DNA of 64,000 nt from Oceanimonas doudoroffii. Its GTDB lineage: Bacteria; Pseudomonadota; Gammaproteobacteria; Enterobacterales; Aeromonadaceae. A program made the translations under genes and the position numbers. The notes under the pieces were generated by a model. The model ran no database searches, was not told where the DNA came from, and saw only the letters and a list, made by a program, of their open reading frames with translations. This document shows, piece by piece, positions 25,263 through 39,199 of the stretch. The stretch lies in the NCBI RefSeq assembly GCF_002242685.1, contig NZ_NBIM01000003.1:191636-255635 (forward strand), in the 5' to 3' direction. Position 1 is the first letter of the stretch. The number at the start of each line of letters is the position of its first letter.

Positions 25263-25970
25263 TTATAACAGCTCGAGCAGCTGCTCCAACCGCGTCAGGG
25301 CAACCTGGGGCAAGCATTGCAGATCCGCTTCGGTACGGCCGTTGTCGTTAAGCCACACCGCCTGGCAGCCGCTATGCACGGCACCGGCCACGTCGGTGCG
25401 AATATGATCGCCAATATGCAAAATCTCGGCGTGATTCACCCCGGCCTGCTCTGCCAGCCGGTCAAACAGATCCGGCGCCGGCTTCATGCGGCCGTCGGGG
25501 CCGGCCTTGAGCACAATCTCGAAATAGGGCGCCAGCTCGGTGTGCTCCAGGGGCATATTGCCGTTGGTGATCACCGCCAGCCGGTACTTTTCCTTGAGCG
25601 TGGTCAGCACGTTATGGGTGGTCTCGGGCACTTTGATTTTGCCGCGCTCGGCCAGAAAGCCCTGATAAAAGGTCTCGGCCAACTGCTCCGCTTTATCTTC
25701 CGCTACTCCCTGCTGACGCAGGCCCTCGACCAGCACGCGCCGACGGCAGGCGCTGACGTCGTGAGCCAGCTCTGGCTGCTCGGCAATCAGCCGGCGCTTG
25801 ATCGCCGCCAGGTTGTCCGCCCCCAGCAGGGTGGACTCGGGGTAATCGTCACGCAGCGCCTGCAGCAGCCAGTTTTCGGCTGCCGTCATCACCGGCACGT
25901 TGTCGTAGAGGGTGTCGTCCAGATCAAAGCTGAGCACCTTTACGGGTGCCATTCGTTTGTAAAAGCGCAT
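25263..25970 (-). CDS. yigB: HAD family phosphatase YigB
   Basis: The 235-residue protein has HAD motif I FDLDDTLYDN, motif II ITNGN, motif III Lys in GRMKPAPDLF and motif IV IGDHIRTDVAGA. The N-terminus MRFYKRMAPVKVLSFDL matches E. coli YigB, which dephosphorylates 5-amino-6-(5-phosphoribitylamino)uracil in riboflavin synthesis and other sugar phosphates. In E. coli it sits between xerC and uvrD. Here the uvrD side is kept, but xerC is 12 kb away. Confidence 0.92.
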   Translation of the reverse strand: MRFYKRMAPVKVLSFDLDDTLYDNVPVMTAAENWLLQALRDDYPESTLLGADNLAAIKRRLIAEQPELAHDVSACRRRVLVEGLRQQGVAEDKAEQLAETFYQGFLAERGKIKVPETTHNVLTTLKEKYRLAVITNGNMPLEHTELAPYFEIVLKAGPDGRMKPAPDLFDRLAEQAGVNHAEILHIGDHIRTDVAGAVHSGCQAVWLNDNGRTEADLQCLPQVALTRLEQLLELL

Positions 25971-26045: not shown

Positions 26046-26930
26046 CTATACCCGCCTCCCTCCCCGTATCGTCTGGGCCAGCTCCGAGATCAGCTCCTTG
26101 GTCAGGTGCGCCTTGCTGCTGTCCTCTTTTTCGATCAGCCCCAGTACCCGGTGCGGCGCCTTGTTGGTAAAGGGAATGCGCTTCAGGGGCAAAGTGCCTG
26201 GATACTGAATGCTGGACTGGGGAATGATGGACACGCCCAGGCCGTGATAGACCATGGCGGAAATGGCCTCCAGGGTATTCAGCTCCATAATGTCGTTCAC
26301 CACGATTCCCAGATTTTTCAGGTGCTCCTCGATCAACTGGCCGACAAATTCATTTTTGTTGAAACGAATAAAGGGATGGGTCTGTAGCAGCACTTCGGGG
26401 GGATCATTGGGTGAGTCGATGGGCGCAATAACAATCAGCGGCTCTGCACCAAAGGGGGTCCATTTCAGCCCCGGACGCTCCGAGGACGTCTCGCTGATAA
26501 TGGCGGCATCAATCGCGCCTCTGTCCACTTGGGCGATCAGGGAGTTGGACTGGCCGCTGGAGACGGAAATATGCAGCTGGGGCAATGACTGACGCAGGCT
26601 GGCCAGGGCCGTTGGCAGCACCCCGGTCAGCATGGTGGGCACCGAGCCCAGAGACAGCTGTCCGGACAGCTTGTCGATAATGGCCGAGGTTTCCATCAGC
26701 TGCTCATAATGCCTGACCAGTTCCCTGGCCTTGGGCACCAGGGCCATGCCCACGGCGTTCAGCACCGGTGGCCGCCGGGTGCGGTCAAACAGCGATATTT
26801 TCAGTTCTTCCTCCAGCGCCTTCATCTGCATGCTCACGGCGGCCTGGGTAATAAACACCGCCTCCGCCGCTTCCACAAAGGAGCCTTTGTCGGCAATGGC
26901 GACGAGGGTTTTCAGGTGGCGAATCGACAT
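26046..26930 (-). CDS. LysR family regulator of the dicarboxylate island
   Basis: The 294-residue LysR-type regulator has an N-terminal winged HTH (MSIRHLKTLVAIADKGSFVE, EAVFITQAAVSMQMKALEEE) and a substrate-binding effector domain (LSLGSVPTMLTGVLPTAL; GAIDAAIISE; GLGVSIIPQSS). It is divergent from the SDH-like operon. The shared region holds the inverted repeat CTTAA-N7-TTAAG, with a second copy upstream of tctC. I infer that it activates both operons in response to the transported acid or an intermediate. Confidence 0.88.
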   Translation of the reverse strand: MSIRHLKTLVAIADKGSFVEAAEAVFITQAAVSMQMKALEEELKISLFDRTRRPPVLNAVGMALVPKARELVRHYEQLMETSAIIDKLSGQLSLGSVPTMLTGVLPTALASLRQSLPQLHISVSSGQSNSLIAQVDRGAIDAAIISETSSERPGLKWTPFGAEPLIVIAPIDSPNDPPEVLLQTHPFIRFNKNEFVGQLIEEHLKNLGIVVNDIMELNTLEAISAMVYHGLGVSIIPQSSIQYPGTLPLKRIPFTNKAPHRVLGLIEKEDSSKAHLTKELISELAQTIRGGRRV

Positions 26931-26973
26931 GTCTGCGGCCTCGGTTGAAGTGGGATCGCCCCTCAGGGCATTT

Positions 26974-26990
26974 CTTAAGACAATATTAAG
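26974..26990. promoter_or_regulatory. LysR-type operator CTTAA-N7-TTAAG (catabolic operon)
   Basis: A perfect 5+5 inverted repeat with a T-N11-A core, CTTAAGACAATATTAAG, lies between the LysR start and the plus-strand operon, in a visibly AT-rich stretch. The same arms with the same spacing recur at 38244-38260. Confidence 0.7.
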
Positions 26991-27101
26991 TTGTTGTTAA
27001 ATTTATATCGTTATCATAAGAAAGGCTAGTTAAATATGATGACCTCAGTGAAGTGACAGCCATTGATCCCGCAGTCATTTTTCCGACGAGGAACTGAGAG
27101 T

Positions 27102-27827
27102 ATGGAAACCAAGCACGAGAAAATAAGCGTATCTATCTGGCGCGGTCAGGAAGACGGTGCATTCGAAGCCTTTGAAGTTCCCTTTGTGGAAGATCAAACC
27201 ATCCTGGATCTGCTGACCCATGTTCAGCGCTCCGTGGACAGCTCTCTGTCCTACCGTTTTGCCTGCCGGGTCGGCATGTGCGGCTCCTGCGCCATGCAGG
27301 TGAACGGCAAGCCGCGCTGGACCTGCCGGACCCTGGTTCGCAATGTGGTACAAAACGGGCAATTGACCCTCAAACCCCTGGCCAATCTGCCGATCGTCAA
27401 GGATCTGGTGGTGGACATGGAGCCATTTTTCAAAAAATGGCAGTCGGCCAAGGGCCGGTTCGAGCCCGCCCCCGCTCCCGTTGAGCACTTTGTGCCCATC
27501 AAGCCCGACGACAAGCAGCGGCAAAAAGCGGACGATGCCATTGAATGCATCAACTGTGGTTGCTGCTATTCCGCCTGTGACGTGGTGGAGTCCAATCCTG
27601 CCTACCTAGGTCCGGCGGCCCTGAACCGGGCCTGGTCACTGATCAACGATGCCAAGGATTACGCCAACCCGGAACGTCTGATCGCGGTCAGTAGCGATGG
27701 CGGCTGTCAGAATTGCCATACCAATTCCCAGTGTGTGGCGCGCTGCCCCCTGGGGCTGAACCCAACGCGCTCCATTGCCGGTCTGAAGAAGGCAGTCTCC
27801 CTGGCCACGCTGAAGGGGGAAATATGA
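27102..27827 (+). CDS. Succinate dehydrogenase/fumarate reductase-like iron-sulfur subunit
   Basis: The 241-residue SdhB/FrdB-type protein has a [2Fe-2S] site in CRVGMCGSCAMQVNGK with a further Cys at RWTC, and the bacterial-ferredoxin part CINCGCCYSACD and CHTNSQCVARCPLGLNPT for the [4Fe-4S] and [3Fe-4S] clusters. The start at 27102 is preceded by GAGGAACTGAGAG. It is first in the operon; the B-C-D-A order is unlike the housekeeping sdhCDAB order. It passes electrons from the flavoprotein at 28553 to quinone through the membrane subunits. Confidence 0.9.
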   Translation: METKHEKISVSIWRGQEDGAFEAFEVPFVEDQTILDLLTHVQRSVDSSLSYRFACRVGMCGSCAMQVNGKPRWTCRTLVRNVVQNGQLTLKPLANLPIVKDLVVDMEPFFKKWQSAKGRFEPAPAPVEHFVPIKPDDKQRQKADDAIECINCGCCYSACDVVESNPAYLGPAALNRAWSLINDAKDYANPERLIAVSSDGGCQNCHTNSQCVARCPLGLNPTRSIAGLKKAVSLATLKGEI

Positions 27828-28162
27828 ATAAAAGAACCGAATTCAAGCTGTGGCTGGCGCATCGCCTGAGCGGCATGCTGCTGGGGCTGTTCGTGGTCAT
27901 TCATATTACCGGCATGATTATCGCGATTCAGGGAGGCCTGTCCGCCTCCGAGATACTGCAGCGAACCAGCGGAAACTATTTACTCGGCCTGTTTTATGCC
28001 CTGTTTACCCTGGCGGCGGCCACCCATTCCGTTATCGGTCTGCGCACCGTGGCCAGGGAAGTCATGGGTTGGCAGGGAACAGGTGCCAACCTGGCGCTGG
28101 CCGTCTTTTTCCTGATGCTCTGTATCACGGGTATTTCTGCGGTAGGAGGCCTGGTGCTATGA
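27824..28162 (+). CDS. SDH/FRD-like membrane anchor, cytochrome b subunit (SdhC type)
   Basis: The 112-residue protein has three hydrophobic helices. It carries WLAHRLSGMLLGLFVVIHI, the HRxSG motif of SdhC, and an ATHSVIGLR histidine in the second helix that can ligate haem b. It overlaps the iron-sulfur gene by ATGA and the next anchor gene by ATGA. With the following gene it should form the quinone site. Confidence 0.85.
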   Translation: MNKRTEFKLWLAHRLSGMLLGLFVVIHITGMIIAIQGGLSASEILQRTSGNYLLGLFYALFTLAAATHSVIGLRTVAREVMGWQGTGANLALAVFFLMLCITGISAVGGLVL

Positions 28163-28497
28163 AAAAGAACCGAGACAAAAAAGAGTACTGGGCGTCCTTT
28201 GTCCAGCGCTGGTCGGGCGTGGCCCTGGCCCTCTTTCTTCCCTTTCACTTTATGGTGCTGAGCCTGATCTTGCAGGGCCCGGAAGTACTGGACGGCTTTC
28301 TTTACTGGGCGGATGCGCCCCTCGTCAAGTTTGCCGAGGCCGGTCTGGTGGGCCTGCTGGCCATTCACCTGCTGGGGGGTGTCCGGCTGTTGATTATCGA
28401 GTTCTTTGCCTGGAAAGAATGGCAGGGCTACCTGATATCCGCTGCCGCCACCGGTGCCGCCGCAACAGGTTGTTTATTTCTTCTGAGGGCACTCTGA
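28159..28497 (+). CDS. SDH/FRD-like membrane anchor, second subunit (SdhD type)
   Basis: The 112-residue protein has three hydrophobic helices, with FVQRWSGVALALFLPFHF at the start and GLLAIHLLGGVRLLIIEF in the second half. Both anchors of this complex carry an RxSG-like motif followed by His, so they may be related by duplication. It starts within the preceding stop codon. A 55-base spacer precedes the flavoprotein gene. Confidence 0.82.
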   Translation: MKKNRDKKEYWASFVQRWSGVALALFLPFHFMVLSLILQGPEVLDGFLYWADAPLVKFAEAGLVGLLAIHLLGGVRLLIIEFFAWKEWQGYLISAAATGAAATGCLFLLRAL

Positions 28498-28552
28498 GTA
28501 TTTGGCCTTAAAACATTCGATGGTGTCCTTTGCAGGATAACGAGGGGAATTT

Positions 28553-30298
28553 ATGAATATTGAAACCAAACAGACCGATATTCTTATTCTGGGCTCTGGT
28601 GGCGCCGGCCTGTTTGCCGCACTGCATTCCTACAGAAGCAACCCGGAACTGAAGATCACCGTGGCCGTCAAGGGCCTGCTGGGCAAATGCGGCTGCACCC
28701 GCATGGTACAGGGGGGCTATAACGTAGCCCTGAATCCGGGGGATTCGGTAGAGCGCCATTTTATGGATACCATTCACGGCGGCTACTGGATTCCCAACCA
28801 GGAGCTGGCCTGGAAACTGGTAGAAACAGCCCCCGGCCGCGTGCTGGAGCTGGAAAACGAGATCGGCTGTTTCTTTGATCGGGTGGAAGACGGCTCCCTG
28901 CACGGCAAGGCGTTCGCGGGCCAGACCTTTGATCGCACTATTCACAAGGGGGATCTGACCGGTATCGAGATCATCAACCGGCTGTCCGAGCAGGTCTGGG
29001 CCCGTCCCATCGACCGGCTCGAGGATCACAGGGCCATCGAGATTATCAAATCCGAGGACGGCGAGCGGATTGCCGGCATTCTGATGGTCAACCTGCGCAC
29101 CGGCAAGCCGCTGTTTGTGCAGGCCAAGGCGGTCATGCTGGGCACCGGTGGCGGCCCGACCATGTATCGCTATCACACCCCTTCCGGCGAAAAATCCTGC
29201 GACGGCCTGGCCATGGCGCTGCGAGCCGGGCTGAATCTGCGCGACATGGAAATGGTGCAATTCCACCCCACCGGCCTGCTGGCAGGAGAAGGTACCCGGC
29301 TGACCGGCACAGTGCTGGAAGAAGGGCTGCGCGGGGCCGGCGGACACCTGCTCAATGGCAAGGGTGAGCGCTTTATGCACTCCTATGACGAGCGTGGCGA
29401 GCGCGCCACCCGCGACGTGGTCTCCCGCTCCATTTATCGCGAGATGCGCAAGGGCAACACCACCAAGAGCGGCGGTGTGCATATCAGCATGGGCCACCTG
29501 GGTCCGGACAATGTACGCGAGAAGTTCAAGGGTATGGTCAGCCGCTGCCAGGACGTGGGCGCAGATCTCGCCGGCGGTCTGGTGGAGGTGGTGCCCACCG
29601 CCCACTACATGATGGGGGGCGTTGAGGTCAACGTGAACTGCGAAACCACCCTGCCGGGGCTCTACTGCGCCGGTGAGGATGCCGGCGGCGTCCATGGCGG
29701 TAACCGCCTTGGCGGCAACGGAGTGGCCAACTCCACCGTATTTGGCGGCATTGCCGGTGATGTGATGGCTGACTGGGTAGAACGCGAGGGTCGCTTTGCC
29801 GAGCCGGATCAGGCGAGCATGGCCCGAGCCATGGACTTTATCGAGACCCCCTTCCGCAACCAGCCGGGGGATCTCAATGACCTTCGTTACCGGCTGCTCG
29901 ACAAGATGTGGGATGACGCCGGCATTATCCGCAATGCCGAAGGGCTGGAGCGTGCCTACAAGGATGTGCTGGCCATTCGTGAAGAGCTGCTGCAACTGGG
30001 TATTCCCGAGCGGGCCAAGGCCTATAACCAGACCTGGCACGACTGGCTGAACCTGCATTCCCAGATCAGCGTCAGCCTCACCATTATCAAGTCGGCGCAG
30101 CTTCGCAAAAATTCCCGGGGCGCGCATTTCCGGGATGATTACCCCGACAAGGGCGATCTGGAGACCTCGACCTATATCCGGTCGAGCCAGCATGGCAATG
30201 AGATAGCAGTGACAGAAGTTCCGGTGGAGTTCACTCGGGTCAAACCCGGGCAGACCCTGATTATGGAAGAGCAAGAAGCGAAAATGGGAGTCGCATGA
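28553..30298 (+). CDS. SDH/FRD-like flavoprotein subunit with altered FAD attachment site
   Basis: The 581-residue flavoprotein of the SdhA/FrdA family has an FAD dinucleotide motif ILILGSGGAGLFAAL. Substrate-site residues are MVQFHPTGL, ATRDVVSRSIYREM (proton-shuttle Arg) and TAHYMMGGVEV, and GLYCAGEDAGGVHGGNRLGGN follows. Where SdhA/FrdA have Ser-His-Thr with FAD bound covalently to His, this protein has Gly-Cys-Thr (Cys48), so classical histidyl-FAD is impossible. It is therefore probably not housekeeping succinate dehydrogenase but a paralogue for another saturated or unsaturated acid. It overlaps the next gene by ATGA. Confidence 0.88.
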   Translation: MNIETKQTDILILGSGGAGLFAALHSYRSNPELKITVAVKGLLGKCGCTRMVQGGYNVALNPGDSVERHFMDTIHGGYWIPNQELAWKLVETAPGRVLELENEIGCFFDRVEDGSLHGKAFAGQTFDRTIHKGDLTGIEIINRLSEQVWARPIDRLEDHRAIEIIKSEDGERIAGILMVNLRTGKPLFVQAKAVMLGTGGGPTMYRYHTPSGEKSCDGLAMALRAGLNLRDMEMVQFHPTGLLAGEGTRLTGTVLEEGLRGAGGHLLNGKGERFMHSYDERGERATRDVVSRSIYREMRKGNTTKSGGVHISMGHLGPDNVREKFKGMVSRCQDVGADLAGGLVEVVPTAHYMMGGVEVNVNCETTLPGLYCAGEDAGGVHGGNRLGGNGVANSTVFGGIAGDVMADWVEREGRFAEPDQASMARAMDFIETPFRNQPGDLNDLRYRLLDKMWDDAGIIRNAEGLERAYKDVLAIREELLQLGIPERAKAYNQTWHDWLNLHSQISVSLTIIKSAQLRKNSRGAHFRDDYPDKGDLETSTYIRSSQHGNEIAVTEVPVEFTRVKPGQTLIMEEQEAKMGVA

Positions 30299-31236
30299 TG
30301 AGCGCAAAACGGATACCCCAGCAACTGGTACTGGAAACGGCAACGGCACTGATGGCACGGGCGGCAATCGACATTCCCCCCGATTACAAGCAGGCCCTGC
30401 AGCAGGCGGCCAGCCAGGAAACCGAAAACCTGTCCTGCTTTGTGATCAAGACCATGCTGGAAAACTACGACGTGGCCGAAAAAGACCGCCGACCCATGTG
30501 TGCCGACACCGGCCTGCCGCGGTTTTATGTCAAGGCGGGGAACGAGGCCATGGTGGAAGGGGGCTTTGTGGCCCTGGAACACGCCGTGCGTGAGGCGGTG
30601 GTCAGGGGCACCCAGGAGATCCCGCTGCGCCCGAACCGCGTGCATCCGTTAACCCGCAAGGACAACAACAACAACCTGGGCATCCATGCTCCGGAAATCG
30701 AATATACCTTTGAGCCGGGCGGAGACTGGATTGACCTGATCACCGTGCATAAAGGCGGCCTGTTCGGTACCGATTACCGTATGTTGTTTCCGGGCGACGG
30801 TATCGACGGTATCAAGCGGTTCTTTCTCGACACCATGGCGTCGTTCGGACGCCGGGGCCTGGCCTGTCAGCCCGCCATCATAGGGGTGGGCCTGGGCGGC
30901 AACAAGGACACCTGTATGCGTATTGGCAAAGAAGCCGCCTGTCTGCGGGTGGTGGGTGATGTCAACCCGGATCCGGAGGTCGCCAGACTAGAACAGGAGC
31001 TGAAAGAGCTGGGCAACAGCATTGGCATGGGGCCCATGGGCTTCAAGGGCAACACCCTGGTGGTCGACTGCCATGTTGAGGTGGCCTACACCCACACCGG
31101 GGGCATGCCAATGAGCATTCATTCCTTCTGTCACTCCTCCCGCCGGGCCGCGGCGCGTATTTACAGCGATGGCCGGGTGGAATTCAGGGACGATCCCCAG
31201 TGGTTCACCGACTTTTATCGCAGGGAGGGTATCTGA
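30295..31236 (+). CDS. Class I fumarase/tartrate dehydratase-like hydratase, alpha subunit
   Basis: The 313-residue protein matches the N-terminal domain of iron-sulfur class I fumarases and TtdA. It has three Cys in conserved settings for a [4Fe-4S] cluster: RPMCADTGLP, GNKDTCMRIG and SFCHSSRRAA. Also conserved are NRVHPLTRKDNNNNLG and GLGGNKDT. Such enzymes add water across a C=C next to a carboxylate (fumarate, mesaconate) or dehydrate tartrate. The substrate is not given by the sequence. It lies directly between the dehydrogenase flavoprotein and its own beta subunit with overlapping codons. Confidence 0.9.
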   Translation: MMSAKRIPQQLVLETATALMARAAIDIPPDYKQALQQAASQETENLSCFVIKTMLENYDVAEKDRRPMCADTGLPRFYVKAGNEAMVEGGFVALEHAVREAVVRGTQEIPLRPNRVHPLTRKDNNNNLGIHAPEIEYTFEPGGDWIDLITVHKGGLFGTDYRMLFPGDGIDGIKRFFLDTMASFGRRGLACQPAIIGVGLGGNKDTCMRIGKEAACLRVVGDVNPDPEVARLEQELKELGNSIGMGPMGFKGNTLVVDCHVEVAYTHTGGMPMSIHSFCHSSRRAAARIYSDGRVEFRDDPQWFTDFYRREGI

Positions 31237-31970
31237 TGAGCCAGATGAGAGTGGTCAAACTGCAAGTACCGGTATCCCAGGAAGATGTCGACAAGCTGGA
31301 GCAGGGGGATGTGGTTTACCTGACTGGTACCCTCTATACCGCCCGGGAAGGGGTGTACAAAAAAGTTCTGGAAAGTGGGGATGAGCTGCCGGTCGACATT
31401 CGCGCTATATCCAATGTCAACTTTCACTGTTCGCCGGCCGCCAGCCCCAATACCGAAGGAGGCTACGATGTGGGCGCGGTGACCGCCACCGCCAGCTTCC
31501 GCTTTGGCAAGTGGATGAAGGACTGGTTCGACACCTCCGGCGCCAAGATCATTATCGGCAAGGGCGGCATGCCGGAAGAAGCCTACCGCGAGGTGTTTAT
31601 GCCTTATGGAGCCCGCTACCTGTCCACGGTGGGATACGGCGCCGGCGCCCTGCTGGGGCGTGGCATCAAACGGGTAAAGGATGTGCACTGGCTGGAAGAA
31701 AACGGCATCGCCCAGGCCATGTGGATCTTTGAAGTGGAAGAAATCGGCCCCTTTATTGTTGATAACGACCGGGAAGGCAACAGCCTGTTCGTCAACCATG
31801 AGCGCGCCGTCAACGCCAAACTGGAAAAGCTGTATGAGGGGCTCAAACCCCCCGCCCTGAAACGTTACGGTGAAACCACCAGCCGCGCCGATGAAGTGAT
31901 CGGCGAGCCGGACAATACCCCCATTCAAATTGTCAATGTAATGCCATATCAAGGGAGTGATAAAAAATGA
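31236..31970 (+). CDS. Class I fumarase/tartrate dehydratase-like hydratase, beta subunit
   Basis: The 244-residue protein corresponds to the C-terminal swivel domain of class I fumarases (TtdB). Signatures are LQVPVSQEDVDKLEQGDVVYL, TGTLYTAREGVYKKVLE, KIIIGKGGMPEEAY and AMWIFEVEEIGPF. The start at 31236 shares one base with the alpha-subunit stop (TGATG); a longer frame from 31200 lies inside the alpha gene. Separate subunits suit archaeal- and TtdAB-type enzymes. Confidence 0.9.
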   Translation: MSQMRVVKLQVPVSQEDVDKLEQGDVVYLTGTLYTAREGVYKKVLESGDELPVDIRAISNVNFHCSPAASPNTEGGYDVGAVTATASFRFGKWMKDWFDTSGAKIIIGKGGMPEEAYREVFMPYGARYLSTVGYGAGALLGRGIKRVKDVHWLEENGIAQAMWIFEVEEIGPFIVDNDREGNSLFVNHERAVNAKLEKLYEGLKPPALKRYGETTSRADEVIGEPDNTPIQIVNVMPYQGSDKK

Positions 31971-33457
31971 ACCAGTTAGGACACCATATTAATGGCGAAA
32001 CCGTCACCGGTCGCGGTGACCGTCACAGCGCGGTATTCAACCCCGCCACCGGCCTGCAGACTGCCCAGCTGACCCTGGCCACGGGCGCGGAAGTGGAGGA
32101 CGCCATTCAGGCCGCCACCCGGGCCCTACCTTCCTGGTCGGCCACCCCGGCGGTACGCCGGGCCCGTATCATGATGAAGTTTCTGCAACTGCTGAACGAC
32201 AACATCGATGAACTGGCTTTGCTGATCTCCAGGGAACACGGCAAGGTGCTGGACGATGCCAGGGGGGAAGTTACCCGGGGCATTGAGGTGGTGGAATTCG
32301 CCTGCGGCATTCCACACCTGCTAAAAGGCGAATATAGCGAAAACGTGGGCACCCGGGTCGACAGCTGGTCCGTCCGCCAGCCGGTGGGCGTCTGTGCCGG
32401 CATTTCCCCGTTCAATTTTCCGGTCATGGTACCGCTGTGGATGTTCCCCATCGCCATCGCCTGCGGCAACACCTTCATCATGAAGCCGTCGGAAAAGGAC
32501 CCCACCAGCACCCTCCGCCTGGCCGAGCTGTTTGCGGAAGCGGGGCTGCCCGCGGGCGTGTTCAACGTGGTCAACGGTGACAAAGAAGCGGTGGATACGC
32601 TACTGACCCATCCGGGGATCAGCGCGGTCAGCTTTGTGGGCTCCACCCCCATTGCCCGCTATGTACAAAGGGTCGGCATCGAACACGGCAAGCGGGTGCA
32701 GGCGCTGGGCGGAGCCAAAAACCACGCCATCATCATGCCGGATGCCGATCTGGACTCAACGGTCAATGCGCTGATGGGCGCGGCCTATGGCTCGGCCGGC
32801 GAGCGCTGCATGGCTATATCGGTGGCCGTGGCGGTCGGTGACATTGCCGACCCTCTGATGGCCGCCCTGAAGGAACGGTTGGAAGAGTTACGGGTGTTGC
32901 CCGGCACTCATCCCGACGCCGAGATGGGGCCACTAGTCACCCGGGAACATCTGGACACAGTGCTCAGCTTTGTGGACAGCGGCCTGAAAGAAGGCGCCAA
33001 GCTAGTCGTCGATGGTCGCCGGACCGATCATCCGGATCACGGAGACGGCTTTTTTATGGGCGGTTGCCTGTTTGACCATGTCACCCCCGACATGCGCATT
33101 TACCAGCAGGAGATCTTCGGGCCCGTGCTCTCCGTGGTGCGGGTGGATGATTATGAGCAGGCACTGGAGCTTATCAACCGCCATGAATACGGCAATGGCA
33201 CCGCCATTTTTACCCGCGAAGGACATGCCGCCCGCGAGTTTGCCGCCCGCGTTCAGGCTGGCATGGTGGGCATTAACGTGCCCATCCCCGTGCCTATGGC
33301 CTTCCACAGCTTTGGCGGCTGGAAAGGCTCCCTTTTTGGCGACCATCATATGCACGGCATGGAAGGCGTGCGCTTCTTCACCAAGCTAAAGACCATTACT
33401 TCCCGCTGGCAGGAAAACAACACCCAGTCTCAGTTTTCCATGCCGACCATGAAGTAA
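31967..33457 (+). CDS. CoA-acylating (methyl)malonate-semialdehyde dehydrogenase, MmsA-like
   Basis: The 496-residue aldehyde dehydrogenase superfamily protein has GVCAGISPFNFPVMVPLWMF, the NAD site FVGSTPIARY and catalytic Cys in SAGERCMAISVAV, the pattern of MmsA/IolA. The family converts methylmalonate or malonate semialdehyde with CoA and NAD+ to propionyl- or acetyl-CoA plus CO2. It overlaps the hydratase beta gene (ATGA) and so belongs to the same pathway. This implies that the pathway produces a 3-oxoacid semialdehyde (inference). Confidence 0.88.
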   Translation: MNQLGHHINGETVTGRGDRHSAVFNPATGLQTAQLTLATGAEVEDAIQAATRALPSWSATPAVRRARIMMKFLQLLNDNIDELALLISREHGKVLDDARGEVTRGIEVVEFACGIPHLLKGEYSENVGTRVDSWSVRQPVGVCAGISPFNFPVMVPLWMFPIAIACGNTFIMKPSEKDPTSTLRLAELFAEAGLPAGVFNVVNGDKEAVDTLLTHPGISAVSFVGSTPIARYVQRVGIEHGKRVQALGGAKNHAIIMPDADLDSTVNALMGAAYGSAGERCMAISVAVAVGDIADPLMAALKERLEELRVLPGTHPDAEMGPLVTREHLDTVLSFVDSGLKEGAKLVVDGRRTDHPDHGDGFFMGGCLFDHVTPDMRIYQQEIFGPVLSVVRVDDYEQALELINRHEYGNGTAIFTREGHAAREFAARVQAGMVGINVPIPVPMAFHSFGGWKGSLFGDHHMHGMEGVRFFTKLKTITSRWQENNTQSQFSMPTMK

Positions 33458-33614
33458 CCGGCCTGAGTCAGGGCCACGCAAAACGTAAATAAACCCGGGT
33501 GCCCGGTTCCCTGACCGGACGCCATGACTGACGGCTTGCTAACGCCTGAGAAAAGCTTCCCTGCTCCGCAGCAGGCGGCAATAAATATCCAACATTACAC
33601 GAGTGGAGAAAGTC

Positions 33615-33941
33615 ATGTTTATCGATGAGCGTATTTATACCCTGAAAAACGGCAAACTGGGGGAGTTCCTCAAGCTGTATGAGGAGCTGGGAAAAGACGT
33701 TCAGGTCCGGATTCTTGGCAATATGATCGGCTATTTCCATACCGATATCGGCCCCCTGAATCAGGTTGTGCATATGTGGGGATATGAATCCCTGGATGAC
33801 AGGTGGCAACGACGCAAGGAGCTACAGGCCAGTGAGGAGTGGCTGAAGTATGCCCTGCAGATGCGCCCGCTGGTGCAGAGCATTGAAAACAAGATACTGA
33901 TCCCCGAGCCCTGGAGCCCCATCGGCGGTAACCAGAACTGA
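33615..33941 (+). CDS. NIPSNAP family protein
   Basis: The 108-residue protein MFIDERIYTLKNGKLGEFLK has the beta-alpha-beta pattern of the NIPSNAP (dimeric alpha-beta barrel) family, with VHMWGYESLDDRWQRRKEL and a conserved C-terminal PWSP. GTGGAG lies upstream of the ATG at 33615. It follows the dehydrogenase gene after a 157-base untranslated stretch with no convincing gene, so it may have its own promoter. NIPSNAP proteins recur in catabolic gene clusters, but their reaction is generally unknown. A strong terminator follows. Confidence 0.85.
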   Translation: MFIDERIYTLKNGKLGEFLKLYEELGKDVQVRILGNMIGYFHTDIGPLNQVVHMWGYESLDDRWQRRKELQASEEWLKYALQMRPLVQSIENKILIPEPWSPIGGNQN

Positions 33942-33963
33942 CTATAATTCCTTATCTTTTTTG

Positions 33964-33997
33964 CAGCAGGATGTGCTCCCATCCTGCTGTTTTTTTG
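33964..33997 (+). terminator. Rho-independent terminator of the catabolic operon
   Basis: CAGCAGGAT and ATCCTGCTG form a 9-bp stem around an 8-nt loop, followed by eight T. It lies 23 bases after the NIPSNAP stop. Confidence 0.93.
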
Positions 33998-34084
33998 CCT
34001 ACCACTTTATGCCGGCGCTCGGCTCATACCGAACGGACTCAACATTTGTTCAAACTGTCAAAGTCAGGATCTGCCCGCATAAAG

Positions 34085-34105
34085 ATACCGGGTCAAGCCC
34101 GGTAT
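34085..34105. repeat. REP-like hairpin between convergent island operons
   Basis: ATACCGGG-TCAAG-CCCGGTAT is a perfect 8-bp stem with a TCAAG loop, a shape shared by common proteobacterial intergenic repeats. The surrounding 33998-34165 contains nothing else I can support. Confidence 0.5.
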
Positions 34106-34165
34106 GGCGGTATTTTACATGCGACTGGCTGTTAGACATTGATCACTTCTTTAGTGGGGTTGGTA

Positions 34166-34939
34166 TCAGAACCCCGCCAGCAGCAAACGCCCTGCCAGCA
34201 CTACTCCAAAGAACAGCAAAAACAGCCAGATCACCTTCTGAAACAGCTCCGCATTCATGCTGCCGGTTAACCGATTGCCCACCAGGGTGGCCAGCGCGGC
34301 CAGTGGCAAAAACAGCAGGTAAAATCCGACAAGACGGGGCGTGATCAGGCCGGCAGACACGTACCCCACCGGGATCAGCACACCACTCAGAATATAAAAG
34401 CCGCTGATGGTACTTTTGAACTGGCTCTGGCTCCAGCCACGCAGACCCCCGTAAATGGTAAAGACGATGCCCCGCAGGGCATAGGCCGAGCCCAGCATAC
34501 CGGCCAGACCGCCAAAGAAATAGCTCCAGCCATCTCCCTTCAGCTGGAAACCGGGATTCGGCAACAGCTTCCAGCAGGCCATGGAGATAAGCAGTATGCC
34601 CAGCAACCCCTTCACCACCTGCTCATTGCCCAGGCTCAGCAGCAACACACCCAAGGGCACTCCCAGCAGGGCCGCAATGGTGGTTCGCTTCAGGGAGCCG
34701 GCCTGCAGGTAATGCCGGTCTTTCCACAGCGCCATAAAGGAAATGGTGGTGGACAGACCGATCAGCAGGGGTACTGCCTCCCGCAGCTCGATAAACAGGG
34801 TCAGCAGCGGCACCGCCACCAGACCATCGCCAAACCCGATGGCAGCCCGCAATAGCAGGGCCACAAACAGGATTAAAGCGATATAGCCCAGATAACTCAC
34901 GTTCATCGCAAGGCCTAGGGATGAAAGCACATAGTCCAT
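34166..34939 (-). CDS. TauE/SafE family (DUF81) anion exporter
   Basis: The 257-residue protein has about eight hydrophobic segments in two repeats, with ALLLRAAIGFGDGLVAVPLL in the first and MLGSAYALRGIVFTIYGGL in the second, typical of TauE/SafE. The start at 34939 has AAGGAGAATCG upstream; an in-frame extension to 34999 is not family-like. It is the last gene after tctCBA. Family members export sulfite, sulfoacetate or related anions. Presence in this cluster may mean the substrate contains sulfur, or that an organic acid by-product is expelled (inference). Confidence 0.85.
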   Translation of the reverse strand: MDYVLSSLGLAMNVSYLGYIALILFVALLLRAAIGFGDGLVAVPLLTLFIELREAVPLLIGLSTTISFMALWKDRHYLQAGSLKRTTIAALLGVPLGVLLLSLGNEQVVKGLLGILLISMACWKLLPNPGFQLKGDGWSYFFGGLAGMLGSAYALRGIVFTIYGGLRGWSQSQFKSTISGFYILSGVLIPVGYVSAGLITPRLVGFYLLFLPLAALATLVGNRLTGSMNAELFQKVIWLFLLFFGVVLAGRLLLAGF

Positions 34940-35024
34940 TATCGATTCTCCTTGAAGACATTGATAAAAAAATGGCTGCCAACACGGGTTGACAGCCATT
35001 GTTCAGCCGAACAAATAAAACCAA

Positions 35025-36545
35025 CTATTGAAGAGATGAGGCTACGGTCGTTCCTCCTTTTTTCTTACTCTTTCCACAAAAGTGGCTTTTGACAAGAAAG
35101 AATACGGTCAGCGCGGTCAGGGACCAGAATACCCAGGTGATCACTCCACGGAACAAAATACCGAAGTCACCGTTGGACATCAGCATGGATTGTCGGAAAT
35201 TGTCCTCAAGCAGCGGGCTGAGAATAAAGGCAATCAGAAAAGGCGCCGAGGGCACATCCAGCCGCAGAAAGAGATAACCCAGCAGGCCCAGAACAAACAT
35301 CACCACAATATCAAACATGGAGTTGTTCACCGCATAGGCGCCATAAACACAGAGCACCAGCACCGCCGGCATAAGTATGGACTTAGGTACGTCCGCCACA
35401 AATCTGAAAATGCGAATGGAGAATCCGCCGATAAAAAACAGGAAGAAAGAACTTAACAGCAGCCCCATAAAGAGGGCATACACCAAGCTGCCATTGGTCT
35501 CAAAAAGCATGGGGCCGGGCTGAATGCCGTGGATCATAAAGGCGCCGATAATAATAGCGGTGATCACATCACCGGGAATGCCCAGCGCCAACAAGGGAAT
35601 AAGGGTAGAGCCGCACACCCCGTTATTGCCCGCTTCCGCCGCGGCTACCCCTTCTATTTCCCCCTTGCCAAAGTTCTGCTTGTTGCAGGACTTGCGTTTG
35701 GCCTCACTGTAGGACAGAAAGGCGGCAGGGGCGGCGCCGATACCCGGAATGGCCCCGAGCACCACACCGATAAAACTGCCCCGGCAGATGGAGCGAAAAC
35801 AGCGCTTGTATTCCTGCAGGGACACCAAGTTGCTGCCCAGCTGGCGCACCTTGCCGTTGTCATCGGACGGGTTCAGGGCAAAGGCAATAATCTCCGGCAG
35901 GGCAAACAGGCCGATAAGCACCACAATAAAGTTGAGCCCGCTCATCAGATCCACACTGCCCATGGTGAAGCGATCAGTGCCGTACACCAGATCCAGGCCA
36001 ACGGTGGCCAGCAGCAGCCCCAGCGCGGCAGAGAACAGCCCCTTCATCAGGTGTTCACCGGAAATACCGGCAATGATCATTAGGGAGAACACCATCAGGG
36101 TGAAATATTCAGGCGGGCCAAAGCTCATAGCGAACGACGCCAGCCAGCCGGCAAACATAATCAGGGACAGGTTAGAAATGATGTCGGCGGTACAGGACGC
36201 ATACAGCGCCATGCCCAGCGCCTTGCCCGCCTGGCCCTTGTCGGCCATGGGGTAGCCGTCCAGAATGGTGGCACTGGACGCCGGCGTACCCGGTGTCTTG
36301 ATCAGAATGGCCGGTATGGAGCCTCCAAAGACGCCTCCCTTGTAAACCCCCAGCAACAGCAGGATGCCCACCACGGGCTCAAGGGCAAAGGTAAAGGGCA
36401 GGGTCAGCGCCACCGCCATGGTGGCGGACATGCCGGGAATGGCCCCACAGATAACCCCCACGGCCACCCCCACCGCCAGAGCCAGAATACTGCTCCACTG
36501 GGCAACCATGGAAAAAGCATCAAGCATTGTATCAAGCATACTCAT
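35025..36545 (-). CDS. tctA: Tripartite tricarboxylate transporter large permease TctA
   Basis: The 506-residue protein has about twelve hydrophobic segments. TctA motifs are GVICGAIPGMSATMAVALTL, PGTPASSATILDGYPMA, GAIPGIGAAPAAFLSYS and LIPLLALGIPGDVITAI. It is the ion-coupled permease of a TTT system that receives substrate from TctC. It overlaps tctB (ATGA). The ligand is a carboxylic acid of unknown identity, presumably the substrate of the neighbouring SDH/hydratase pathway. Confidence 0.93.
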   Translation of the reverse strand: MSMLDTMLDAFSMVAQWSSILALAVGVAVGVICGAIPGMSATMAVALTLPFTFALEPVVGILLLLGVYKGGVFGGSIPAILIKTPGTPASSATILDGYPMADKGQAGKALGMALYASCTADIISNLSLIMFAGWLASFAMSFGPPEYFTLMVFSLMIIAGISGEHLMKGLFSAALGLLLATVGLDLVYGTDRFTMGSVDLMSGLNFIVVLIGLFALPEIIAFALNPSDDNGKVRQLGSNLVSLQEYKRCFRSICRGSFIGVVLGAIPGIGAAPAAFLSYSEAKRKSCNKQNFGKGEIEGVAAAEAGNNGVCGSTLIPLLALGIPGDVITAIIIGAFMIHGIQPGPMLFETNGSLVYALFMGLLLSSFFLFFIGGFSIRIFRFVADVPKSILMPAVLVLCVYGAYAVNNSMFDIVVMFVLGLLGYLFLRLDVPSAPFLIAFILSPLLEDNFRQSMLMSNGDFGILFRGVITWVFWSLTALTVFFLVKSHFCGKSKKKGGTTVASSLQ

Positions 36546-37036
36546 GGCAACCTCATCATTTCACTTTGGGGAATACTGATACCGGCCACATGATAAAAGA
36601 ATGCGTACAGAGTAATGGGCAGGAGAATACCGACGAGCACGGCGGAAATACGATACTGGGTTTTGCAGATCACGACGGAAAGCAGAATATAGGCAATACT
36701 GGACCCCCATACCATGCCCAGATCAGGGAGCAGAAGGTAATAACCGGTAAAAAACAAAACAAGGAGCAGCAGATACCACTCCTTTTTACAGGCCAGCAGG
36801 CCATTATTTCCGGATGATTCCGCCTTCTGTTTTTTTGACAGTGAGGAGGCCATCATGGCAAGGCCAATCAGCAACATCATCCATGAGATAACATTGGGCC
36901 AGAACGCAGGGTCTAGCACCAGCAACCTGACATTAGCCGGCGACACCACCGACGCCGGCACAATATAATAAATCAGCATCAGGGACAGGAGTAATACTCC
37001 AGCTCCGATGGAGAAGTCTCTGTTTTTAAAAACCAT
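36542..37036 (-). CDS. tctB: Tripartite tricarboxylate transporter small permease TctB
   Basis: The 164-residue protein has four hydrophobic helices (IGAGVLLLSLMLIYYIV; WPNVISWMMLLIGLAMM; WYLLLLVLFFTGYYLLL; AVLVGILLPITLYAFFYH), the TctB layout. It lies between tctC and tctA, as in other TTT operons. The poorly conserved family is identified from topology plus context. Confidence 0.85.
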   Translation of the reverse strand: MVFKNRDFSIGAGVLLLSLMLIYYIVPASVVSPANVRLLVLDPAFWPNVISWMMLLIGLAMMASSLSKKQKAESSGNNGLLACKKEWYLLLLVLFFTGYYLLLPDLGMVWGSSIAYILLSVVICKTQYRISAVLVGILLPITLYAFFYHVAGISIPQSEMMRLP

Positions 37037-37067
37037 GAAGTAAACCTCATGAATATTAAAAGGTGAT

Positions 37068-37086
37068 GCGCACCCTGAAGGTGCGC
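37068..37086 (-). other. Intercistronic hairpin between tctC and tctB
   Basis: GCGCACC-CTGAA-GGTGCGC is a perfect 7-bp stem in the 63-base gap. Hairpins after binding-protein genes often stabilise or attenuate so that the binding protein is made in excess. That role is inferred here. Confidence 0.55.
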
Positions 37087-37099
37087 AAAATATGGCTTA

Positions 37100-38086
37100 T
37101 TAATTAATTTGCATATTTAGCTTGACCACCAGCTCCCTGAAGGCGAGATACTGACCGTTAATAAAAGTTTCCGACTCCTCCGGCCCCATATTCACCACAA
37201 TAGAGCCCAGTTTTTCCATGCTTTCTACAAAGGTGGGATTATGCGTGGCGGTATGCATCCACTTTACCCAAGCTGCAGCCACTTCGGGTTCTAATGATTT
37301 GGGGCCGGCAATACCAGTCCAGCCAAGCAATGTCTCCAGTTCGGGGTGCTCCAGCTCCGCCGCCGTGGGGGCATCTATGCCCGGCAATCTTTCCTTGGTG
37401 GTGACCAGCAGGGGATTAACCTGGCCGTTCCTGATAAAACCGGCCACCGCCGCCGAGCTTTCACACAAGAAGGTGGCGGTGCCGTTCAATACCGCCGTCG
37501 CCGCTTCACCGCCTCCCCTCATGGGCAGGTGCACCGTGCTTTCTAGAGGCTTATCTACCCCAAAGGCATTCATCACCATGGCGCCGGCCAGATGCTGCAA
37601 CGAGCCAACCCCCGAGGAGCTGTAACTGACGCTACCCGGTTCGGCATGCACCTTGTCTACCAGCTGGTGAATGCTTTCTATACCACTCTCTTTGCTGGTA
37701 ATGCACACCACCGGATTGATTTCGTAAACCCCCACCATTTTGAAGTCGTCCAGCTGGTAAGGCAAAGTCTGCTTCATAGCGGGGTTGACCGTGTGGGAGC
37801 CCACCCGGGCGGCCACCATGGTATAGCCGTCCCCCCGGCTGTGAGCGACAAAGGCCGAGCCAGCGGCGCCCCCCGCCCCAGTGCGGTTTACCAGCACCAA
37901 GGGTTTCGACACCTCATCCGCCATCGCCTGGGCTAGGGCACGTGCCGAAATGTCCGTGACCCCACCGGTACCATAGGGGATCACCAGAGAAATGGGGCGA
38001 CTGGGGTATTCTGCATAAGCAGGGCCAGCCAGAGCGATACCGGCGCCTAACAGCAGAGAGGTTTTGAGCAGGTTACTTATAGCCAT
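37100..38086 (-). CDS. tctC: Tripartite tricarboxylate transporter substrate-binding protein TctC (Bug family)
   Basis: The 328-residue precursor has a signal peptide (LLLGAGIALAGPAYA-EYP). The Bug signature YPSRPISLVIPYGTGGVTDI precedes RALAQAMADE and NRTGAGGAAGSAFVA, which line the carboxylate-binding cleft. It is periplasmic and captures the substrate for TctAB. It heads the minus-strand operon and has a CTTAA-N7-TTAAG operator about 160 bases upstream. Confidence 0.93.
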   Translation of the reverse strand: MAISNLLKTSLLLGAGIALAGPAYAEYPSRPISLVIPYGTGGVTDISARALAQAMADEVSKPLVLVNRTGAGGAAGSAFVAHSRGDGYTMVAARVGSHTVNPAMKQTLPYQLDDFKMVGVYEINPVVCITSKESGIESIHQLVDKVHAEPGSVSYSSSGVGSLQHLAGAMVMNAFGVDKPLESTVHLPMRGGGEAATAVLNGTATFLCESSAAVAGFIRNGQVNPLLVTTKERLPGIDAPTAAELEHPELETLLGWTGIAGPKSLEPEVAAAWVKWMHTATHNPTFVESMEKLGSIVVNMGPEESETFINGQYLAFRELVVKLNMQIN

Positions 38087-38273: not shown

Positions 38274-38296
38274 AAAAAGGGTTATTCACCCTTTTT
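38274..38296. terminator. Terminator overlapping the xerC stop codon
   Basis: AAAAAGGGT-TATTC-ACCCTTTTT is a 9-bp stem whose loop holds the xerC TAA. A and T runs within the stem ends allow use from either side. In E. coli transcription continues from xerC into yigB. Here it should stop, in line with the inserted island. Confidence 0.8.
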
Positions 38297-39199
38297 ACGT
38301 TTGGCCCTGGGGTGAGCCTGATCGTAGGCGTTGGCCAGGTGCTGAAAGTCGAGGTGGGTGTAGATTTGGGTGGTGGCCAGATCGGCGTGGCCCAGCAGCT
38401 CCTGCACCGCGCGCAGGTCGCCGCTGGACTCCAGCATATGGGTGGCGAAAGAGTGGCGTAGCTTGTGGGGGTGCACATGGCTGGACAGCGCCTGCTGCTG
38501 GCCCCGTTTGGCCAGGCGCAGTTGTACGCTGCGGTGGGTAATGCGCCGGCGCTGCTTGCTGACGAACAATGCCGGTTCGTCGGGGCCGGCCAGCTCGGGG
38601 CGCACGCTCAGCCACTTTTGCAGCCAGTCCAGTGCCATGCGCCCCACCGGTAGCACACGCTCCTTGTTGCCCTTGCCGGTCACCCTGACCTGGCGCTCGG
38701 CAAACTGCACATCCCCCAGGTTGAGCGCCACCAGTTCGGCCAGACGCAGGCCGGAGGAATACATCAGCTCCATGATGGCCCTGTCCCGTACCGCCAGGGG
38801 GTCGGATTCATCCAGATTCATCAGCTGATGCAGCTCGTCCACGTCCAGGTTTTTGGGCAACGGCCGGCCCTGCTTGGGCGCGCTTACCCCCTTGGCGGGA
38901 TTGGCGTCAAGCCGGCCAGTGAGCACCAGCCAGTCGCAAAAGCTGCGCAGGGCGCTGAGCCGGGCGGCGATGGAACGGGGTGACAGCCCCTGCTTGTGCA
39001 TGCGGGTGGCCAGGCCCCGGGCATGGGCCACCGAGAGATGTTGCCAGTCGGTCAGGTGAAGATCGGTCAGCTGTTCGCTCATGGCGCCCAGATGCCGGCG
39101 GTAGTTGTCCAGGGTATGCGGGCTGAGCTGGCGCTCCACCCGCAGGTAATCGAGAAAATCGGTTACCTTACCGGCCAATGCCGGTTCAGGCGTGGCCAT
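38282..39199 (-). CDS. xerC: Tyrosine recombinase XerC
   Basis: The 305-residue recombinase has an N-terminal SAM-like DNA-binding domain and a catalytic domain with Arg in [10 protein letters not shown], Lys in [23 protein letters not shown] (His and Arg), His in [10 protein letters not shown] and nucleophile Tyr in QIYTHLD. With XerD it resolves chromosome dimers at dif. It overlaps the DUF484 gene by 14 bases. The E. coli-type neighbour yigB has been separated from it by the island. Confidence 0.96.

Follow-up and report, generated by a model that had tools for sequence, protein, structure and literature searches.

A 64,000-nucleotide stretch of the Oceanimonas doudoroffii genome (contig NZ_NBIM01000003.1, positions 191,636 to 255,635; hereafter the window) carries, at positions 26046-38086, a gene cluster that is most likely an island acquired by horizontal transfer and used to grow on a C3 sulfonate, the likeliest being 3-sulfopropionate (3-SP). 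The cluster encodes a membrane complex resembling succinate dehydrogenase (SDH) and fumarate reductase (FRD), a class I fumarase-like hydratase, an MmsA-type semialdehyde dehydrogenase, a NIPSNAP-family protein, a TauE exporter and a tripartite tricarboxylate transporter (TTT), TctABC. These proteins come from known families that together would make up an organosulfonate pathway, and we did not find their combination described in the open-access literature.

In the pathway that we propose, TctABC would import 3-SP and the membrane-bound SDH-like complex would take two hydrogens off it, passing the electrons to quinone and leaving 3-sulfoacrylate. The fumarase-like hydratase would then add water at the sulfonate-bearing carbon to give 3-hydroxy-3-sulfopropionate, the bisulfite adduct of malonate semialdehyde, which would dissociate and free sulfite. 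Finally, MmsA would convert malonate semialdehyde to acetyl-CoA and CO2, and TauE would export the sulfite. Dissociation of such a hydrated product is established bisulfite-adduct chemistry, which the cluster may exploit. We give the complete scheme, from 3-SP to malonate semialdehyde, a probability of about 0.58, and hold it highly probable that the module of this operon acts on an organosulfonate of some kind.

A preliminary description of the cluster, made from the sequence alone, had proposed that an acid of the form R-X-CH2CH2-COO-, with X a thioether or ether, is desaturated and hydrated and then collapses to malonate semialdehyde. That chemistry is largely supported, with a sulfonate fitting better as X. 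SDH-like, fumarase-like and MmsA genes in a row make sense if the substrate is X-CH2CH2-COO- and X leaves once a hydroxyl group sits on the same carbon. We take X to be SO3 because the module's neighbors in other bacteria include the SorT sulfite dehydrogenase, a putative sulfate exporter, TauE and gene sets that we read as SuyAB and sulfolactate dehydrogenase. A single substrate, the succinate-shaped dianion 3-SP, would account for the hydratase, MmsA, TauE, SorT and the sulfate exporters. A sulfonate was not among the substrates originally considered, but the suggestion that a sulfur anion is exported agrees with these sulfite and sulfonate neighbor genes.

3-SP arises from homotaurine and through the breakdown of sulfoquinovose, an abundant plant-sulfolipid sugar, and the accessible parts of the same source describe its bacterial degradation as not previously reported apart from a cited thesis (PMC11489063). 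Elsewhere, in sources likewise available to us in part, 3-SP degradation is said to require further investigation (PMC9594981) and its mechanism in Bilophila to be unclear (PMC12890257). Our searches of the open-access literature returned no paper joining at least four of the five terms sulfonate, fumarase, succinate dehydrogenase, sulfite exporter and malonate semialdehyde, none in which 3-sulfopropionate occurs together with malonate semialdehyde and sulfite, and none on bacterial degradation of sulfopropionic acid under that name; sulfoacrylate gave one relevant paper.

The cluster is an insertion and its genes recur together

The cluster is an insertion between two housekeeping genes that we take to be xerC and yigB. 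On its left lies a HAD hydrolase gene (yigB-like; 25263-25970, minus strand, assigned by Pfam), followed by a gene that is presumably uvrD, and on its right an xerC-like recombinase gene (38282-39199, minus strand). Among the 23 genomes of the genus examined, the yigB-like gene adjoins xerC in all 21 that are free of the cluster, the two lying roughly 80 to 1140 bases apart. The window and one other genome (G009) have the cluster's tctC beside xerC in place of yigB.

The inserted genes are rare among close relatives and scattered more widely. At E <= 1e-40 the hydratase alpha subunit is found in 2 of 100 relatives, the genome itself included, and at E <= 1e-150 the flavoprotein of the SDH-like complex is found in 11 of 398 genomes drawn evenly across the phylum, again counting its own. 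The full gene set recurs in Oceanimonas sp. CHS3-5, whose cluster proteins are 77-99% identical to those of the window, in two Amphritea genomes and on a plasmid of Pseudomonas sp. MPC6; because the same genes recur jointly in other genomes, the set is not a chance grouping. A core of six genes, SdhB-C-D-A-FumA-FumB, which we call the module, recurs in Alpha-, Beta- and Gammaproteobacteria. For genome loci of the module we took the best 80 of at least 556 confirmed relatives and called their genes with a simple composition-aware caller; at a number of these 80 loci, Rokubacteria included, FumA and FumB alone are visible within reach. Among the loci examined, MmsA follows the hydratase directly in Oceanimonas, Amphritea, Pseudomonas MPC6 and Telmatospirillum, and lies a few genes off in Cupriavidus sp. 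P-10, C. necator N-1 and a phylum-sample genome (L116).

Two module loci have features of their own. On a plasmid of Paracoccus pantotrophus DSM 11072 (L204, 9773-10939) the flavoprotein frame measures just 388 aa, and the sequence before it yielded no recognisable SdhB, SdhC or SdhD; this copy therefore looks incomplete. At L057 (12929-16274), SelA- and SelB-like selenocysteine genes lie downstream of the module; the same groups occur in conserved order in L041 and L058, the Pfam assignments having been checked in L057.

The module is repeatedly linked to sulfite and sulfonate genes

Four kinds of gene were scored as markers when they lay no more than 8 kb from the flavoprotein gene: those for TauE, for SuyB-like proteins, for YeiH-type putative sulfate exporters and for members of the sulfite oxidase family. 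Hidden Markov models (HMMs) were made for 16 partner families and 54 of 103 loci, in which the flavoprotein gene had 5 kb or more of sequence to either side, were judged; of the others, 23 had no usable flavoprotein frame and 26 had less than 5 kb on one side, among them L119, in which TauE is present. The HMM seeds were taken from the window, L018, L022, L040, L052, L074, L097-L099 and L101-L109, so these loci match partly by construction, and none came from the evenly drawn phylum sample (L116-L125). Two pairs of plasmid loci (L099/L106 and L101/L109) are near-copies, and L202-L204 stand outside the counts. The control consisted of 40 like-sized windows at fixed positions on module-bearing contigs of nine phylum-sample genomes.

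A marker was found at 23 of the 54 loci, comprising the window (1/1), 7 of 32 close genome loci, 10 of 12 plasmid loci and five of nine loci from the phylum sample, and in one control window (1/40, a TauE gene). Against the control, Fisher's test gave p = 3.7e-4 for the phylum sample, p = 0.012 for the close loci and p = 4e-8 for the plasmids, values to be read with the caveats that the loci are not fully independent and that the HMM seeds overlap with the last two groups. None of the 40 controls held an SSADH, SuyB-like, YeiH, sulfite oxidase or HpsN-like gene, and NIPSNAP and TctA genes were each found in one. An MmsA-type gene lay within 8 kb at 8 of the 54 loci, compared with 0/40 controls, and all eight of these loci carried a marker (p = 5e-4). 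A NIPSNAP gene is within 8 kb at 9 of 80 module loci (the window, L017, L018, L019, L097, L099, L101, L106 and L109), and all nine have a sulfite marker, five of them having supplied or sharing HMM seeds. A flavoprotein tree, built by a quick method, requires 11 changes of the marker label, six or more of them forced by starred branches, and four changes for MmsA; the 11 changes imply that the link to markers was gained or kept many times. We conclude that the module is repeatedly linked with sulfite and sulfonate genes.

Gene content of the cluster

All the genes named in the preliminary description were found in 26046-38086 by their Pfam and NCBIfam scores. A LysR-type regulator gene (26046-26930, minus strand; Pfam HTH_1 and LysR_substrate) is divergent from the operon, and 18 of the 80 genome loci have a LysR gene from its blast group. 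The operon opens, on the plus strand, with the SdhB/FrdB-like iron-sulfur subunit (27102-27827; TIGR00384, 191.9 bits, cut-off 88). Its reading frame begins at TTG 27063, and comparison with the homolog in locus L017 makes ATG 27102 the probable start. Two small membrane subunits follow. The first (SdhC-like, 27824-28162) is 91% identical to its L017 counterpart and belongs to a group present in 50 of the 80 genome loci; the second (Sdh_cyt, about 28159-28497, the start again set by comparison with L017) gives a PF01127 match on the open reading frame 27850-28497. Next come the SDH/FRD-like flavoprotein, our proposed 3-sulfopropionate dehydrogenase (28553-30298; assigned by Pfam and by alignment with E. 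coli FrdA), and the two hydratase subunits, alpha at 30295-31236 (TIGR00722, 230.1, cut-off 100.65) and beta at about 31236-31970 (PF05683, 89.6, cut-off 22.2; start by comparison with L017). The beta subunit scores 118.8 on TIGR00723, under the cut-off of 145.15.

The CoA-acylating malonate/methylmalonate-semialdehyde dehydrogenase of the MmsA type (31967-33457; TIGR01722, 689.2 bits, cut-off 448.5) has solved relatives in 9q0d and 4e4g, and its frame overlaps the hydratase gene. Several adjoining frames of the cluster overlap by 1-4 bases, in keeping with one operon. The NIPSNAP-family gene lies at 33615-33941 on the plus strand (PF07978, 99.6, cut-off 22.3). The remaining genes are on the minus strand and encode the TauE/SafE protein, our proposed sulfite exporter (34166-34999; PF01925, 69.2, cut-off 32.6), and a complete TTT set (35025-38086), made up of the large subunit TctA (35025-36545; PF01970, 488.4, cut-off 28.9), the small membrane subunit TctB (36542-37036; PF07331, 39, cut-off 29.1) and the periplasmic binding protein TctC (37100-38086; PF03401, 119.5, cut-off 27). 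The relatives of TctC in the PDB are all other TctC/Bug-type proteins, which do not decide its substrate. The LysR-SdhB and TctC upstream regions were compared for a shared operator motif, and no word of 9 to 12 bases occurs in both.

The flavoprotein departs from standard succinate dehydrogenase

The flavoprotein aligns with E. coli FrdA over residues 4-529. The position of the His that links flavin adenine dinucleotide (FAD) is Cys in all 75 module flavoproteins that reach it, the other five of 80 rows being gapped there, and the Thr of the FrdA motif ILMTEG is replaced by Glu (VLEEGLRG) in 80/80. The remaining active-site residues His, Arg, His and Arg are kept in 80/80; with the replaced Thr, these substrate-site residues are, on the numbering that we assume, H232, T244, R287, H355 and R390 of FrdA. 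The stretch from HPTGL to EEG is also longer than in FrdA. The Cys and Glu replacements indicate a protein related to standard succinate dehydrogenase but distinct from it. The genome carries a separate SDH-like gene with the pattern HPTG...VTEG and a 545-residue frame with a fumarase C-terminal domain.

Two types of hydratase accompany the same flavoprotein

The hydratase has the alpha and beta domains of the two-subunit class I (Fe-S) fumarase/tartrate dehydratase superfamily. Three Cys of its alpha subunit align with those of 6mso, which we presume to be the cluster ligands, and the subunit falls below the equivalog cut-offs both for fumarase (224.1 of 276) and for tartrate dehydratase (161.4 of 365). 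In Methylobacterium (L104) and a phylum-sample locus (L118), the flavoprotein is the same, at 64-65% identity to that of the window, and stands beside a hydratase of another type, whose alpha subunits are 37-38% identical to the window's and 66% to each other. There the order is SdhBCD-FumAB-SdhA, next to SuyB-like and sulfolactate-dehydrogenase-like genes. This second type is rare (1/398 genomes at E <= 1e-60). The window type is found at all eight MmsA loci, but this is weak evidence because it is the common type, present at most other loci as well.

The existence of two hydratase types suggests two ways of hydrating sulfoacrylate. It is possible, and we put it forward tentatively, that one sulfonate-specific SDH-like dehydrogenase feeds both, the window type (with MmsA) hydrating the carbon next to the sulfonate, with immediate desulfonation to malonate semialdehyde, and the Methylobacterium type hydrating the other carbon to form sulfolactate. 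A strict division of this kind is opposed by the commonness of the window type, by L066 and the wider P. versutus region, where that type has a SuyB-like gene as neighbor, and by Rhodococcus jostii, which has the other type (50%) and no SuyB-like gene in reach. If the idea is correct, hydration-driven desulfonation of a vinyl sulfonate would be a widespread route for 3-SP.

Gene neighborhoods of the module in other bacteria

At E <= 1e-100, 18 plasmid records contain a match to the flavoprotein. We examined regions of 16 of them, and 12 of these regions carry annotation. In this account SuyAB, ComC, SlcC and HpsN are our own labels, resting on a recurring gene set that was given these names in a Paracoccus (PMC12421959). 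The best NCBIfam matches of the L104 proteins are all below cut-off: galactarate dehydratase for the SuyB-like protein (135.5 of 730.85), L-sulfolactate dehydrogenase for the ComC-like one (160.1 of 500) and phosphoglycerate dehydrogenase for the SlcC-like one (265.2 of 454); the HpsN-like protein of L107 exceeds the histidinol dehydrogenase cut-off.

On the Pseudomonas MPC6 plasmid, the six module genes are found with LysR, TctCBA, TauE, a porin, MmsA, NIPSNAP, a putative sulfate exporter, cytochrome c and a sulfite oxidase that NCBIfam identifies as SorT sulfite dehydrogenase (666.9 bits, cut-off 570). Methylobacterium nodulans has the module with an amidohydrolase, a symporter, a putative sulfate exporter, a molybdopterin oxidoreductase, cytochrome c and TauE. 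In Paracoccus versutus and P. ferrooxidans it is accompanied by YeiH, NIPSNAP, TauE, LysR, a TTT, and Ldh-family and hydroxyacid dehydrogenases; further along in P. versutus are a gene annotated hisD, which we read as HpsN, a UxaA pair, which we read as SuyAB, a putative sulfate exporter and a sulfite oxidase. Alongside the module, M. radiotolerans and M. oryzae carry a thiamine pyrophosphate (TPP)-dependent enzyme, TauE, a UxaA pair, a dicarboxylate symporter and two dehydrogenases. The NT-25 and NT-26 plasmids have a sulfate exporter, NIPSNAP, LysR, TauE, a TRAP transporter, gabD and a sulfolactaldehyde-3-reductase-like gene (324.3 bits, under the cut-off of 348). Sulfitobacter sp. THAF37 has TauE, LysR and a TTT, Sulfitobacter S190 a TTT and no exporter, and P. 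seriniphilus a TTT and no TauE, with a YeiH gene just past 8 kb.

The Telmatospirillum locus includes an SSADH over its subfamily cut-off (684.6, cut-off 646.35) and the Caenimonas locus a piece of one. These genes, like gabD and the sulfolactaldehyde-3-reductase-like gene of NT-25/NT-26, could serve to make 3-SP. 3-Sulfopropionaldehyde dehydrogenases are related to 4-aminobutyrate enzymes, according to work cited in the part of PMC11489063 available to us.

On a plasmid of Haloarcula sp. GH36 (L108, 5238-10509), the flavoprotein and SdhB are accompanied by an Ldh-family gene, TauE and a UxaA pair, and no fumarase is annotated near them; a gene annotated argininosuccinate lyase lies beside them and might be the hydratase. 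Several lineages have an amidohydrolase gene close to the hydratase genes (L116 12651-13514, L040, where it belongs to PF04909, L052, L100, L103, L119 and L203). A TPP-dependent enzyme recurs beside the module in L052, L098, L104, L116, L118, L121 and L203; that of L052 is nearest to the acetolactate synthase and 2-hydroxyacyl-CoA lyase models, below all cut-offs shown.

Weighing the alternatives

Several observations weigh against the 3-SP scheme. None of the four markers is present at 31 of the 54 module loci, where the module may serve another use or its partner genes may lie elsewhere. TauE is common, with about four genes per phylum genome and the family present in 194 of 200 genomes (YeiH is in 85 of 200). 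Within 8 kb, the window operon is accompanied by neither a putative sulfate exporter nor an SSADH nor a sulfite dehydrogenase, and the SorA-like gene of the genome, with a score of 224, falls short of the cut-off of 600. FrdA mutants lacking the FAD-linking His lose succinate oxidation, and the module flavoprotein is without that His; the Glu in place of the FrdA Thr is not an obvious way of binding a sulfonate. The published sulfofucose catabolism of P. wurundjeri does not run through 3-SP. Finally, a thesis on Roseovarius nubinhibens, as cited in the accessible part of PMC11489063, which names no genes for the route, takes 3-SP via sulfoacrylate and sulfolactate rather than malonate semialdehyde.

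That thesis points to the closest alternative, in which the same sulfonate is hydrated at the other carbon, a SuyAB-type lyase encoded elsewhere splits the resulting sulfolactate into pyruvate and sulfite, and MmsA serves another purpose. UxaA pairs read as SuyAB, together with an Ldh-family gene and mostly a second dehydrogenase, do lie near the module in M. radiotolerans, M. oryzae, L118 and Haloarcula and further along the P. versutus plasmid region, and the genome itself holds one SuyB-like gene (C1:2035957). However, no SuyAB gene is within 8 kb of the window flavoprotein, and the genomic SuyB-like gene is weak: its score on the SuyB HMM is 240, compared with 596 for L066 and 363 for the L118 gene, which is truncated at the end of its locus. 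The genomic gene sits with enolase-superfamily and BCCT genes. The overlap of MmsA with the hydratase gene also speaks against this route, as does, weakly given how common the window type is, the different hydratase in Methylobacterium and L118. We consider the sulfolactate route unlikely here. The locus of the genomic SuyB-like gene, a UxaA-family member (L128, 9605-13828; G000 contig 1), is perhaps another acid dehydratase cluster.

The family names fumarase, tartrate dehydratase and fumarate reductase, and the many markerless loci, would suit an ordinary or alternative pathway for C4-dicarboxylates, methylsuccinate/mesaconate or tartrate in which TauE is incidental. MmsA is left unexplained, as the preliminary description had already pointed out for methylsuccinate, mesaconate and tartrate-type acids, and the enrichment of markers over controls argues in the same direction, so that we regard such a pathway as distinctly unlikely. 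An ordinary tricarboxylic acid cycle or tartrate role is disfavored by the separate SDH-like gene and fumarase-domain frame of the genome, the marker enrichment and the altered flavoprotein residues. A different organosulfonate with a succinate-like core, such as sulfosuccinate, might instead be desaturated and hydrated to sulfite and a keto or aldehyde acid. It would share the sulfite and sulfonate linkage, the MmsA-free loci need no semialdehyde step, and the longer cap stretch and Thr-to-Glu change of the flavoprotein could be read in its favor; yet the oxaloacetate expected from sulfosuccinate would not need an MmsA that overlaps the hydratase gene and is linked at the eight loci counted above. 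We think a substrate of this kind improbable.

The thioether or ether acids of the preliminary description, above all 3,3'-thiodipropionate (TDP), would also yield malonate semialdehyde, and TctC proteins have been studied as TDP carriers in Variovorax (PMC8102459, in the part available). That idea is also favored by Sulfitobacter THAF37, in which a gene carrying the annotation 3-sulfinopropanoyl-CoA desulfinase lies about 10.7 kb from the flavoprotein gene. The precedent invoked for it, TDP use in Variovorax by way of a class I fumarase-like gene, found no support: in the accessible text of PMC6370202 and PMC8102459 the word fumarase occurs 0 times, and the proposed route is CoA-dependent, through TDP-CoA and enoyl-CoA hydratases. 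Among the island genes we found none for CoA activation, an acyl-CoA dehydrogenase or enoyl-CoA hydratases (the rest of the genome was not searched for these). The absence of a mercaptopropionate dioxygenase, noted before for the window, extends to the whole genome, which gave 0 matches to PF05995, the cysteine dioxygenase (CDO) family that includes 3-mercaptopropionate dioxygenase. TDP and other thioether acids were rejected as first choice because the proposed route is CoA-dependent and the genome has no CDO-family gene; moreover, the module-linked genes handle sulfite, sulfate and, as we read them, C3 sulfonates. Such a substrate is very improbable.

Relation to known systems

If 3-SP is the substrate, the cluster supplies genes for a step in its degradation that is missing from published accounts and offers a testable desulfonation chemistry. 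The annotations 'L-aspartate oxidase', 'fumarate reductase' and 'tartrate dehydratase' borne by module proteins would be corrected. It would also explain why fumarate- and tartrate-annotated genes rise in sulfonate-grown Paracoccus, for in published proteomics a 'fumarate and tartrate' cluster that includes a TauE gene is raised during growth on a sulfonate. We take this P. wurundjeri cluster to be the module: its 11 locus numbers (MDP0926751-0926761), among which TauE holds the seventh place, would match a series of six module genes plus TauE, LysR and TctCBA, which is the Sulfitobacter THAF37 set less one gene.

Like complex II, the cluster encodes a flavoprotein together with iron-sulfur and membrane subunits and keeps most substrate-site residues, but it differs in the Cys for the FAD-linking His and the Glu for the substrate-site Thr. 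Its MmsA resembles MmsA/IolA-type malonate-semialdehyde dehydrogenases in being full-length and over the curated TIGR01722 cut-off; the genome has four other MmsA-like genes (E <= 1e-80), and in an 11-row tree the eight module-linked MmsA proteins stand apart from three of these. TDP catabolism in Variovorax paradoxus TBEA6, as far as the sources available describe it, shares TTT uptake and the release of a sulfur anion, and is unlike our scheme in its CoA-dependent route with enoyl-CoA hydratases, 3-mercaptopropionate dioxygenase and a desulfinase. HpfXYZ of Enterococcus gilvus has 3-SP as a metabolite and an adjoining TauE gene, but, in the part of PMC11489063 at hand, it makes and exports 3-SP via a CoA ligase and involves no desulfonation. 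The SlcC/ComC-SuyAB and TauE route of Paracoccus (PMC12421959) also releases sulfite for export by TauE, and gene sets read this way are found on the same islands as the module in Paracoccus, Methylobacterium, L118 and partly Haloarcula; that route uses a sulfolactate lyase, of which none was found near the window operon. The nearest parallel is the R. nubinhibens route of the thesis cited in the accessible part of PMC11489063, which would run alike from 3-SP to sulfoacrylate and then through a hydration, and parts from our scheme at the product, sulfolactate there and, as MmsA implies, malonate semialdehyde here.

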